Shown: in pieces, positions 3,062 to 6,623 of the stretch
Position numbering within the stretch: the first letter of the stretch is position 1
Layout of the letters: each line of letters starts with the position of its first letter
DNA from: a virus
Virus record (IMG/VR): IMGVR_UViG_3300048835_000278
Location: 1-23,776 of that record
DNA: 23,776 bases
Strand: one strand, 5' to 3'
Made by a program: the position numbers and the translations under genes
Notes under the pieces: generated by a model
The model's database searches: none
Seen by the model: the letters and a program-made list of their open reading frames with translations, nothing else
What the model was told of the DNA's origin: nothing

Positions 3062-3244
3062 GTGTTCCGCCGTCCCGCGCCCCACCCGGCGCCGTCACCG
3101 AATCACACCCGGGTAGTTCGCTGCCGCCGGGCCCGGCCACCGTGGTGGCGGGCCCGTCGCCGCGGTGAGTGGGCGCTGATCGAGGGTCGCCGTGCCGTGT
3201 CCGAGCTGCTCGCTACGGGCCGGCCCCGAGGCGGGGTGGCCTGA
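3062..3244 (+). CDS. Doubtful small basic ORF (60 aa)
   Basis: A GTG at 3062 lies 11 bases after the AGGAGG at 3045-3050, and the stop overlaps the next ATG by one base (TGATG), as elsewhere in this cassette. Against it, the product is Arg/Pro-rich and low in structure for its first 35 residues, and an imperfect hairpin (3128-3156) sits in the middle. Only the last 25 residues (GEWALIEGRRAVSELLATG) look protein-like. It may be a real small gene, a truncated remnant, or merely the leader of the replication gene. Confidence 0.35.
   Translation: MFRRPAPHPAPSPNHTRVVRCRRARPPWWRARRRGEWALIEGRRAVSELLATGRPRGGVA
3128..3156 (+). terminator. Imperfect hairpin upstream of the replication genes
   Basis: CGGGCCC(G)GCCACC pairs with GGTGGCGGGCCCG around a tiny loop, giving about 13 base pairs with one bulged G. 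It lacks a T tract. It separates the small-gene cassette from the HNH/replication gene at 3244 and could act as an attenuator or an mRNA-processing element. A smaller CCCCG/CGGGG hairpin lies just before the ATG at 3244. In DNA this rich in G and C, chance hairpins are frequent, so the call is tentative. Confidence 0.35.
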
Positions 3245-4332
3245 TGGCGTGGTTCCGCATCGATGACGGTTGGCTCCACCACCCCAAGTCCCGCCGCGCG
3301 GGCCGTGACGGCCGGGACCTGTGGGTGGCGTCCGGGACGATGTGCGCGAAGTACTCCACCGACGGGTGGGTCGAGGGCGCCCTGGCCCCCGACTACGCGA
3401 CCGCCGGCGGCGTCACGAAGTGGAAGGCGGCCGCCAAGGCGCTCGTCACCGCCGGGCTGTGGCACACCGCCGACACCATCAAGCAGTGCCCGAAGTGCCG
3501 GGACCAGATCGCCGAGATCAACACCCAGCGCTCCAAGGACGGCGAGCCGCTCATCGCCATGGGCCCCGAGGACTTCTTCTTCCACGAGTGGTGGCTGTAC
3601 CAGCAGCCCAAGAAGGCCAAGCAGTCCGCCTACGCCAAGCTGGCCGCCGACCGGATGCGGGCCCTGCACCGCAACACCGAGCTGTGCCGGGCGATCCAGA
3701 TCCGTGACCGTGACCGCTGCCGGTACTGCTACGTCGAGGTCAACTGGAACGACCGGCGCTCGGCCACCCGCCCCACCTACGACCACGTCGACCCCCACGA
3801 CTTCGACGGCCCCGACGGCGGCAACTCGCTCGACAAGGTCGTGGTCGCCTGCGCGACCTGCAACGGCCGCAAGGGCAAGCGCACCCCCGAGGAATGGGCC
3901 GCCGACCCCAAGGTTCCGGGCCACCTGCTCCGCCCCCCGTACCAGCCCCCCCAGGACGTGACGCCGGTCACAAAACCTGATCCAAAACCCAATCCCGATC
4001 TACCCCGACCGGCCGGTCCAGACCCCCAAAACCTGCCCCGACCGGCCGGTCCAGACCCCGAAAACCTGCCCGGACCCTCGCATGACGCGCGACTCGGGTC
4101 GGGGCGGGTCGGATCTGGTTCTGGGGCAGATCCGGGACTGGGTCGGGCCGGGACGGGCATGGCCGGGCTGGTGCGGGGCGGGACCGGGCCGGGCCTGGAC
4201 GGTGCGGGCCTGGTCGGGTTCGGGCCGCCCGGGGCCGGGCCGGGACGGGAGCCGCCGACAGGCGGCACCACCAACCCACCATCCGACCGAACGACCGCTG
4301 CAGCCGATGACGCGGAGGACCTGAACCGATGA
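3244..4332 (+). CDS. Replication-initiator-like/HNH endonuclease fusion protein
   Basis: This 362-residue protein has three parts. Residues 1-75 (MAWFRIDDGWLHHPK...GLWVASGTMCA...VTKWKAAAKALVTAGLWH) resemble the winged-helix N-terminal domain of actinophage replication or DNA-binding proteins. After an extra CxxC (82/85) comes an HNH nuclease domain: C159-x2-C162, D180-H181, N194, C203-x2-C206-N207 and K210. Residues about 232-345 are a Pro-rich and then Gly-rich tail with an 11-residue repeat (PRPAGPDPxNL, twice). HNH domains cut DNA using a metal held by the His/Asn/His-type site, and the Cys pairs bind structural zinc. The tail DNA contains iteron-like repeats (separate entries). The ATG shares one base with the previous stop; the gene is coupled to the clamp-like gene (ATGA). 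Confidence 0.8.
   Translation: MAWFRIDDGWLHHPKSRRAGRDGRDLWVASGTMCAKYSTDGWVEGALAPDYATAGGVTKWKAAAKALVTAGLWHTADTIKQCPKCRDQIAEINTQRSKDGEPLIAMGPEDFFFHEWWLYQQPKKAKQSAYAKLAADRMRALHRNTELCRAIQIRDRDRCRYCYVEVNWNDRRSATRPTYDHVDPHDFDGPDGGNSLDKVVVACATCNGRKGKRTPEEWAADPKVPGHLLRPPYQPPQDVTPVTKPDPKPNPDLPRPAGPDPQNLPRPAGPDPENLPGPSHDARLGSGRVGSGSGADPGLGRAGTGMAGLVRGGTGPGLDGAGLVGFGPPGAGPGREPPTGGTTNPPSDRTTAAADDAEDLNR
4001..4066 (+). repeat. Two 33-bp iteron-like direct repeats, each with a 12-bp palindrome
   Basis: The units 4001-4033 and 4034-4066 differ at only two positions. Each contains the perfect palindrome GACCGGCCGGTC (4007-4018 and 4040-4051), so the two dyads are exactly 33 bp, about three helical turns, apart. 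The octamer AAAACCTG, which is AT-rich for this genome, ends the series at 3972-3979, 4028-4035 and 4061-4068. The repeats encode the PRPAGPDPxNL linker. They may be simple coding repeats, or binding sites for the product of the same gene, as in the lambda O/ori arrangement. Confidence 0.8.
4090..4262 (+). repeat. G-run tract with G-quadruplex potential on the + strand
   Basis: This stretch carries about 19 runs of three or four G separated by 1-6 bases, immediately after a C-rich stretch (about 3890-4080). It encodes a Gly-rich low-complexity tail (GSGRVGSGSG..., GGTGPGLDGAG). Dense short-loop G runs can form quadruplexes in single-stranded DNA or RNA. The abrupt strand-composition switch is unusual inside one gene. 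Confidence 0.7.
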
Positions 4333-5039
4333 CCCTGTTCGATGCCTGGGATCTGGCCACGGGCTGGCTGTCGGTCGCTGTCGCCAGCTCGAAGGACGAG
4401 GACCGTCCGGCCCTGCACCGCACCGTGGCGATCGAGGCGTTCCACGAGGGCGTGCGCCTCACGGCCACCGACAGCTACCTGCTGTTGACGGCGTGGGTCC
4501 CGAACCTGGATCACCCCGACGAGCCGCCCCCGCCGCTCGACGTGGCCCCGTACGGCACCACGGTGGCCATCGACCCGCACGGCCGGGCCCGCGGCCTGCT
4601 GGGCCACGCTCTGGGCCTGGCCCACGCCGCGGAGAAGGCCGACGACCCCGAGCCCGTCGAGGTGTCGCTGCAGCTCGGTGTGGTCGATGAGGTCGATGAC
4701 CGGTCGATGCTGGCCGGGATGGAGGTGCCGTGGGTGGTGATCGAGCTGCCGGGCACCGAGCGGGTGAAGCTGCGCACCTACGAGGGCGAGTACCCGAACT
4801 GGCGTGGCCTGTTCGGGTCGGTGAAGCCGAAGCGGACCGCCGGTGTGGGCCTGTCGGCTGACCGGTTGGCGCAGCTGGCCAAGCTCACGAAGTACCACCC
4901 GGCCAAGGTGCTGCGCATGGCATTCGCCGGCGACGGCCACGCCGTGCACCTCGAGCTCCAGGACCGCCACATCGAGGGCCTGGCCATGACGGTGCGCACC
5001 GACATGGAGACCGGCGACCCGATCGGTGGTGACGAGTGA
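4329..5039 (+). CDS. Sliding-clamp (DnaN-like) protein, short form
   Basis: The 236-residue product has beta-clamp-like features: an early 'EGVRLTATDSYLLLTAW' (about 40-56; compare the 'gl.l.atD...' strands of DnaN), an acidic helix-strand region, 'VVIELPG' and 'YEGEYPNWRGLF' (151-162; DnaN has a similar G-x-[FY]-P-x(2,4)-L element), then 'GVGLSADRLAQLAKL', which resembles the helix opening the third clamp domain. A bacterial clamp has three domains and about 370 residues; this one seems to carry about two, as many phage clamp-like proteins do, and would need a higher-order ring. Its presumed role is to tether a polymerase to DNA. It sits directly behind the putative initiator (ATGA overlap), which fits a replication module. 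Confidence 0.6.
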   Translation: MTLFDAWDLATGWLSVAVASSKDEDRPALHRTVAIEAFHEGVRLTATDSYLLLTAWVPNLDHPDEPPPPLDVAPYGTTVAIDPHGRARGLLGHALGLAHAAEKADDPEPVEVSLQLGVVDEVDDRSMLAGMEVPWVVIELPGTERVKLRTYEGEYPNWRGLFGSVKPKRTAGVGLSADRLAQLAKLTKYHPAKVLRMAFAGDGHAVHLELQDRHIEGLAMTVRTDMETGDPIGGDE

Positions 5040-5743: not shown

Positions 5744-6033
5744 CGGTCGTGCTGCGGTGCGGCTGCCAGGTGCTAGCCCGTGACGAGTTCACCCTGACCA
5801 CCCACCACGTCGACCGGGAGCCACGCAAGGATGACCTGCTCCGCTGGCTCACAGACGCCGGGGTCGCCGTCGACCGATGCCTTGCGGTCCGGCTGGGGGA
5901 AGGGCTCGTTGCGGCAGAGCTGGCCCACCGCCCGTTCCGGCGCTGCGGTGATCACGAGGCCACCTACGTTGCCGAGATCCTGGTGACGTCGCCGCCGCCG
6001 GTTTGGCCGGTGTTCCCCCGGTACATGCGCTGA
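5740..6033 (+). CDS. Hypothetical protein (97 aa)
   Basis: GTG at 5740 overlaps the previous stop (GTGA). The product begins VVLRCGCQVLARDEF, a short Cys-x-Cys beta hairpin, then has a helix (KDDLLRWLTDAGVAVDRCLAV) and a later 'RRCGDH' that may complete a metal site with the N-terminal cysteines. No family is recognised. It is the last gene before the non-coding gap at 6034-6242 and so probably ends the replication operon. Confidence 0.55.
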   Translation: MTVVLRCGCQVLARDEFTLTTHHVDREPRKDDLLRWLTDAGVAVDRCLAVRLGEGLVAAELAHRPFRRCGDHEATYVAEILVTSPPPVWPVFPRYMR

Positions 6034-6242
6034 CCTGGGGTATCCACCACTTCGGTGCTCGGAGGGTACATACTTCATTTCGATGGGCCGTCCTGGTGAT
6101 CCGGGGCGGCTCTTCTCGTTGCGGGGAGGTGGGTCGTGCTGGCTGCGTTCTCCCGCTGGTTGTTGGATCGGGTGGTGCCTCGTCGGGCGGTGCAGGCGGG
6201 GCCGTGTCGTCCGTTGGGTGGCCATCGTTCGTGGCGGCCGTA
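6034..6242 (+). other. 209-bp gap between the replication and packaging modules
   Basis: No convincing gene is seen here. The first 60 bases are less GC-rich than their surroundings and contain CATACT at 6069-6074, a weak -10-like element; no good -35 is seen. The gap lies directly ahead of the HNH-TerS-TerL block, where cohesive-end phages often have their cos site and a late promoter. Neither can be proven from sequence alone. A short ATG frame opening at 6083 is Arg/Gly-rich and looks spurious. Confidence 0.35.
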
Positions 6243-6587
6243 ATGCCGTCTCGTCCTCGGCGTCCTCGGTCCCGGGAGTTGTACGACGCCGACCATGAGC
6301 GCCGCACTCGTGCGGCGATCGATGCGGAGCCGTGGTGCCATGCCCGAGGTGGTTGCCCGCACGCTGATGCGGGCACTCGGGCCAATCCGTTGACCGGTGA
6401 TCATCCTTGGTCGCTGGCCAGCTTCGGTGGTGACGTCGATGCGTGGCGGTCTCAGCCTCGGGTGCCGCTGTGTCGGCGCTGCAACTCCTCGAAGGGCGGT
6501 TCGCCGCTGGTGGAGGGGGAGGGGCGGGCGAAAAGTTCGGGCCCGGGGCGGGGCGGCCAGGACCCGCCAGCGTTCCTCTCTCGCTGA
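6243..6587 (+). CDS. Small HNH endonuclease next to the terminase genes
   Basis: The 114-residue product has a basic N-terminus (PSRPRRPRSREL) and an HNH core: C32 and C38 (WCHARGGCPH), D53-H54 (TGDHPWSL), a 'FGGD' turn, and C77-x2-C80-N81 with K84 (LCRRCNSSKGG), followed by a Gly/Ser-rich tail. Stand-alone HNH proteins beside the small terminase are a recurring part of cos-type packaging machines, where they help the terminase cut; that is the likely role here. ATG at 6243 has no good ribosome binding site; GTG at 6231 is an alternative. The gene uses more T-ending codons than most neighbours (8 of its first 23), a mild hint of separate origin. Confidence 0.8.
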   Translation: MPSRPRRPRSRELYDADHERRTRAAIDAEPWCHARGGCPHADAGTRANPLTGDHPWSLASFGGDVDAWRSQPRVPLCRRCNSSKGGSPLVEGEGRAKSSGPGRGGQDPPAFLSR

Positions 6588-6623
6588 CGAAAGTCCGGAC
6601 CCCGCGTACCCAAGGAGGCGGTG

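Follow-up and report, generated by a model that had tools for sequence, protein, structure and literature searches.

The window analysed here, the whole 23,776-nucleotide stretch of viral DNA, contains at 3244-4332 (+ strand, ATG at 3244) an initiator-type gene, recognised from its translation and PHROG matches. Its 362-amino-acid product consists, in this order, of an N-terminal HTH domain, an HNH domain and a low-complexity Pro/Gly-rich tail, and the DNA encoding the tail contains the element considered below. A longer contig of 34,579 bases represents the same phage, with one mismatch in the shared part (99.99% identical). No further close relative of the phage was found besides this 34.6-kb contig, and the phage records searched contained no near match to the window. 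The GC content of the phage is 71%. Because a tyrosine integrase gene, a ParB-like gene, the HTH+HNH initiator-type gene and the terminase genes all lie on the 34.6-kb contig, the phage is probably temperate. A WhiB-type regulator gene (PF02467, E 7e-12) at 402-713 of the window overlaps, in another frame, the upstream part of a long ORF whose last part encodes the ParB-like protein. On the longer contig (L320), adjacent DUF433 and DUF5615 genes at 1283-2353, beside the integrase gene, are possibly a toxin-antitoxin pair.

The N-terminus of the repeat-bearing gene had been said to look like that of a replication or HTH protein, and this was borne out by a match of the product to PHROG 2447, replication initiation protein (E 6.8e-13). 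The domain (3244-3651, + strand) is predicted to be helical and HTH/replisome-organizer-like (AlphaFold2 pLDDT 87.7). Its matches among predicted viral structures, to HTH, DUF1376 and replisome organizer proteins, were stronger than those in the PDB, where the fold matches were weak (the Rep-DNA complex 5kbj at E 1.0, and the DnaD N-domain); a sequence search of PDB chains with a profile of the domain gave no match. The probable HNH domain (3718-3882, + strand; CRYC...DHVDP...CATCN) was assigned through PHROG 15463, HNH endonuclease (E 1.5e-17), through Pfam PF01844 at 20.3 bits, slightly below the cut-off of 21.4, and through fold comparison, in which HNH-type matches appeared at E 0.04 and weaker. 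This HTH+HNH fusion is common, being found also in Arthrobacter, Gordonia, Brevibacterium and Actinomyces phages. The next gene (4329-5039, + strand), a neighbour outside the element, had been called sliding-clamp-like. The gene does follow in this position, but its possible clamp identity comes from a single weak match to PHROG 947, DNA polymerase processivity factor (E 0.002). The same product matches the RusA-labelled PHROG 12598 at E 3.5e-6, and no PDB relatives of it were found.

Repeats and G tracts in the window

Two 33-bp direct repeats lie on the + strand at 4000-4032 and 4033-4065, 31 of their 33 positions being identical. They correspond, with a shift of one base (4000-4065), to the repeats with two mismatches in the original prediction, and the palindrome and boxes that it described are also present: GACCGGCCGGTC lies within each repeat, at 4007-4018 and 4040-4051, and AAAACCTG starts at 3972, 4028 and 4061. 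Neither sequence has other copies in the 34.6-kb contig, where three copies of AAAACCTG stand against 0.20 expected and two of GACCGGCCGGTC against 0.02. The box at 3972-3979 (+ strand), with GCCGGTC just upstream, is probably part of a third, degenerate repeat unit. Under a criterion of at least 29/33 identity at a spacing of 20-120, the 33-mers are the sole near-tandem repeat of the longer contig. Their identity rarely survives synonymous resampling (p=0.011), and both palindromes were retained in 0 of 20,000 such trials. Adjoining the repeats is an AT-rich tract (3970-3999) with 57% AT in this 71% GC phage; among all 30-mers of the 34.6-kb contig, the one starting at 3970-3972 shares the highest AT content, a value that is modest in absolute terms. 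The two 33-mers and the one partial unit, unique in the contig, are specific to the window phage, and we consider that they are best read as its putative iterons.

The abrupt change from C-rich to G-rich strand composition that had been placed near 4085 was recovered at about 4085-4095 and is the sharpest in the contig. Indeed, the strongest C-rich and G-rich asymmetries of the 34.6-kb contig join at 4095, the 150-bp G4Hunter maximum starting at 4096 (+1.16) and the strongest minimum at 3922 (-1.14). A GGG-tract array of degenerate GGGNC repeats, with G on the coding strand, then extends over 4096-4250 (+ strand) and is the counterpart of the array of the homologues. It contains 10 GGG-N2-GGG pairs, where 2.5 would be expected if the phage's codon usage were applied to an identical protein (p=0.001), and it has the highest GGG density in the contig. 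G-quadruplex motifs, defined in sequence as four G-tracts of at least 3 with loops of at most 7, are present at 4123-4193 and 4206-4249. The longest exact-period run is 4 tracts, and the strict form of (GGGWC)3 or more, exact GGGWCGGGWCGGG, is absent from the whole contig; the window is a degenerate member of the GGG-tract array group. Inside the array lies an inverted repeat, CGGATCTG-N9-CAGATCCG (4110-4134, + strand), whose ATCTGG/CAGATC words are also found before the array in HNH-type relatives. Another, less pronounced G-rich stretch, with 5 GGG-N2-GGG pairs, was seen at 6407-6590 of the window; it lies in a small ORF (6003-6587) that immediately precedes the terminase small subunit.

The G-tract array in related genes

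Relatives were gathered by protein homology alone, and a G-rich element of this kind occupies the corresponding place of an initiator-type gene in clearly more than a hundred related phages and prophages. It consists of tandem GGG tracts, mostly (GGGWC)n. HTH-only genes carry the G tracts on the non-coding strand, HNH-type genes on the coding strand. Of 91 non-redundant genes, 69 have runs of at least four tracts (38/52, 15/17 and 16/22, against 0, 1 and 0 elsewhere in the same loci), and these runs occur in all three frames; synonymous resampling gave p<0.05 in 62 of 67 genes. The HTH-only genes (n=80, gathered by N-terminal homology) have mostly (CCCGW)n, with n mostly 4-7, near codon 120-190 and in all three frames. 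GGG arrays are present in the 3' third of 49/49 HNH-type genes (gathered by protein homology), with exact-period runs of at least four tracts in 47 of them. Genes from bacterial genomes (50 usable), among them those of Streptomyces, Nocardia, Gordonia, Arthrobacter, Nonomuraea, Amycolatopsis and others, give the same picture. Gordonia phage Phinally and Streptomyces phage Darolandstone are examples of phage isolates whose array is strict.

Across whole records, the array was found in 45 of 50 and, 3 stray places aside, was confined to the initiator-type gene; a reversed-pattern control over 50 whole records gave 1 match. Rare second arrays off the initiator gene were noted in phage records (G022:41138, G026:14350, G044:68125, G057:34904 and G068:29842). 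Among the 80 array contigs listed by a search with the DNA pattern, the array lies inside an HTH initiator frame in at least 45 and directly behind one in 4; about 10 more have it in HNH-type genes, as judged by eye, and most of the remaining contigs appear non-coding or may not be viral. The DNA pattern alone is unspecific, because array contigs L096, L117, L124, L126 and L163 look non-coding or non-viral, possibly eukaryotic. CCCGT arrays near 10142 in L111 and near 4382 in L162, close to the ends of 74-77-kb viral contigs, are apparently non-coding, and neither is enclosed by an HTH initiator frame. In L021 and L044 the HTH frame ends near codon 115, and the array is still found about 450 bp from the start codon.

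Among the relatives, HNH-type genes encode the tail peptides GSGRV, GTGRD or GRAGQ, whereas the tail of HTH-only genes reads DPTRPDPTRP. One DNA repeat lies behind both kinds of tail: the period-5 GGGTC reads GGG TCG GGT CGG GTC, and its complement reads GAC CCG ACC CGA CCC. The occurrence of the array in three frames and on either strand, and its retention past the end of the HTH frame, show that it is kept as DNA. Since (GGGTC)n gives GSGRV and its complement (GACCC)n gives DPTRP, the Pro/Gly-rich linker would be a by-product of selection on DNA, a proposal that forms part of the origin explanation given below and shares its likelihood.

Selection could instead act on the protein, favouring a disordered Pro/Gly/Arg-rich tail for its flexibility or charge, with the DNA repeats arising by slippage in a tolerant region. 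The tail is indeed low-complexity in every relative. Moreover, Brevibacterium phage AGM1 has four annotated 198-bp tandem repeats in the homologous HTH+HNH gene (L006 3293-4084), so that this region in the AGM phages evidently tolerates expansions. These repeats resemble those of the window in lying upstream of the G-array of their gene; their unit is unrelated to the window's 33-mers. The 198-bp tandem repeats of Brevibacterium aurantiacum phages were reportedly described by de Melo et al. in 2020. However, arrays in all frames and on either strand give differing peptides (GSGRV, DPTRP, GQGQ), synonymous choices favour the array, the array outlasts the HTH frame, and it is flanked by iterons and a hairpin. 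We consider it unlikely that the properties of the tail explain the array, and prefer selection on the DNA.

Sequences flanking the array

Repeated short palindromes stand directly before the array in HTH-only genes. They are lineage-specific, comprising GTCACGCGTGAC, GTTCGGGCGAAC, GTAACGCCGTTAC, GTCCGGAC, TTGCGCCGCAA and GAAGCA/TGCTTC, and repeats are enriched solely in the 120 bp that precede the array (Fisher p ~1e-24; 7e-23 in a second run), each of the eight other bins giving p=1. A general iteron signal was not found before the array of HNH-type relatives (p 0.2); ATCTGG or CAGATC words are enriched there, with ATCTGG in 9 of 15 genes. In 21 of 54 HTH-only genes a perfect hairpin of 7 bp or more directly follows the array, and its loop is C-TN(N)C-G in 17 of these 21, as against 0 of 300 hairpins elsewhere. 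Incidence and loop identity were counted as evidence for the hairpin, and covariation was excluded because perfect stems had been selected. No hairpin with a C-TNAC-G loop follows the array in the window or in HNH-type relatives. On the complementary strand the loop reads C-GNNA-G or C-GNA-G, and such loops give extra-stable DNA mini-hairpins (PMC4686876).

The hairpin also bears on the possibility that the element works as RNA, the array and hairpin acting in the mRNA, as a G-quadruplex or a UNAC-type hairpin, to control translation or decay of the initiator message. UNAC loops are a stable RNA type, the coding-strand loop of the hairpin is TNAC, and the G tracts of HNH-type genes are on the coding strand. 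Against this, the mRNA of HTH-only genes is C-rich, because their G tracts are on the non-coding strand; the GNNA/GNA rule for the complementary DNA strand fits 17 of 21 loops, whereas UNAC fits 11 of 21; and palindromic iterons usually point to a protein that binds duplex DNA. Control through the mRNA thus appears very unlikely, and we return to an element that acts as DNA.

A similar arrangement occurs in another group of initiator genes. Pseudomonas phages phi297, D14L and Ostro have GGGACA repeats in the linker of a DUF1376 (PF07120) gene, and DUF1376 proteins of Pseudomonas and Burkholderia phages share with the window protein a similar predicted N-terminal fold in some viral members. Like the family described above, DUF1376 genes have intragenic palindromic repeats and then GGGACA-type repeats, but the repeats are of 6 bp rather than 5 bp and the arrays are looser. 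Four strict tracts are reached in 2 of 9 non-redundant viral-contig DUF1376 genes; other DUF1376 genes have, by eye, looser GGGACA, GGGAGA or GGGTAA repeats behind palindromic repeats. In phi297, GTGACA-type repeats precede the array and a GTCCTAC-TGAC-GTAGGAC hairpin with the same loop follows it. The PHROG for the phi297 gene product is labelled 'replication protein', with an O-like initiator match; the gene is followed by a DnaB-like helicase gene, and that of D14L by a DnaC-type loader and a helicase.

Two narrower proposals did not survive these comparisons. Recognition of a pure 5-bp period is weakened by the 6-bp GGGACA/GGGAGA arrays of DUF1376 phages and by the degenerate array of the window. 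A link of the hairpin to the G strand was dropped, since the TGAC loop of phi297 is in coding orientation together with coding-strand G tracts.

Reading of the element as a probable origin

From the sequence comparisons, we consider it probable, at roughly three chances in four, that this phage, itself probably temperate, has an intragenic replication origin at about 3960-4250, and that the protein encoded by the surrounding gene reads it. Our confidence is somewhat lower for the window phage than for the family, because the window has a degenerate array and two 33-mers with a partial third. What stands of the intragenic origin in the original prediction is a cis element inside an initiator-type gene, with lambda-like anatomy; its conserved part, however, is the G-tract array and not the 33-bp repeats. 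The nicking role suggested for the HNH domain is unsupported, as HTH-only homologues lack this domain and yet have an array of this kind; the domain is therefore dispensable for the element. A GC-skew minimum also failed as an origin marker: there is a local minimum at exactly 4095, but the global minimum of the contig lies elsewhere, and among 21 genomes a skew extreme fell within 5% of genome length from the array in 4 cases versus 4.2 expected. A cis site of another kind, for partition (ParB), recombination or packaging, would agree with a single site per genome, with palindromic repeats and with the ParB-like gene nearby in the window phage, but we think it as improbable as control through the mRNA, since, in many phages and prophages that are unrelated to one another, the element goes with the initiator gene and not with parB or terminase.

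If the element is an origin, we suggest that the HTH domain (3244-3651) would bind the iterons, in the window the 33-bp repeats with GACCGGCCGGTC, and that the adjacent AT-rich tract and the array would be opened. A G-quadruplex or a strand-specific protein might then keep the G-rich strand open, and the opened element would be where helicase and primase are loaded. Because the loops shift from 2 nt to ACA/AGA and the strand flips, we think that what may be selected is more likely a property of the G tracts or of a G-quadruplex than a single fixed recognition sequence. The loops are AC or TC in more than 85% of strict arrays, and this leaves room for a sequence-reading protein.

The closest known counterpart is oriLambda, in which iterons and an adjacent AT-rich tract lie in the middle of gene O of lambdoid and Stx phages (PMC7466680). 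The window likewise has repeats and an AT-rich tract inside an initiator gene (3960-4250 within 3244-4332). In contrast, the initiator domains are unrelated, O has no HNH domain, and the conserved part here is a GGG-tract array on either strand, to which HTH-only relatives add a loop-conserved hairpin. Among extrachromosomal mycobacterial prophages, the RepA-type initiator gene is sufficient for replication, and an origin has been suggested in or beside repA, for which repeats were not identified (PMC7157519). These systems share with the window an actinophage initiator gene and an origin proposed to lie in or beside it. When open-access full texts were searched for the array sequence or for DPTRPDPTRP, no relevant paper and no description of the array was found. 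The array thus appears not to have been described before, a provisional statement because the search covered open-access full texts.

More tentatively, and at somewhat less than even odds, we propose that these elements represent a widespread origin module of G+C-rich phages. It would combine lineage-specific iterons, a G-quadruplex-type array on either strand and sometimes a loop-conserved mini-hairpin, all placed within the coding sequences of HTH, HTH+HNH and DUF1376 initiators, with the G-strand structure replacing the AT-rich melting tract of lambda. To our knowledge, the replication origins of most actinophages are not known, and the one-site-per-genome signature offers origin candidates for very many actinophages and prophages. 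Plasmid tools for Streptomyces, Gordonia, Arthrobacter and their relatives might also be built from these candidates. Finally, with this element it can be asked directly whether, in G+C-rich genomes, the part of an origin that is opened may consist of G-tract structures, either alongside AT-rich DNA or in its place.
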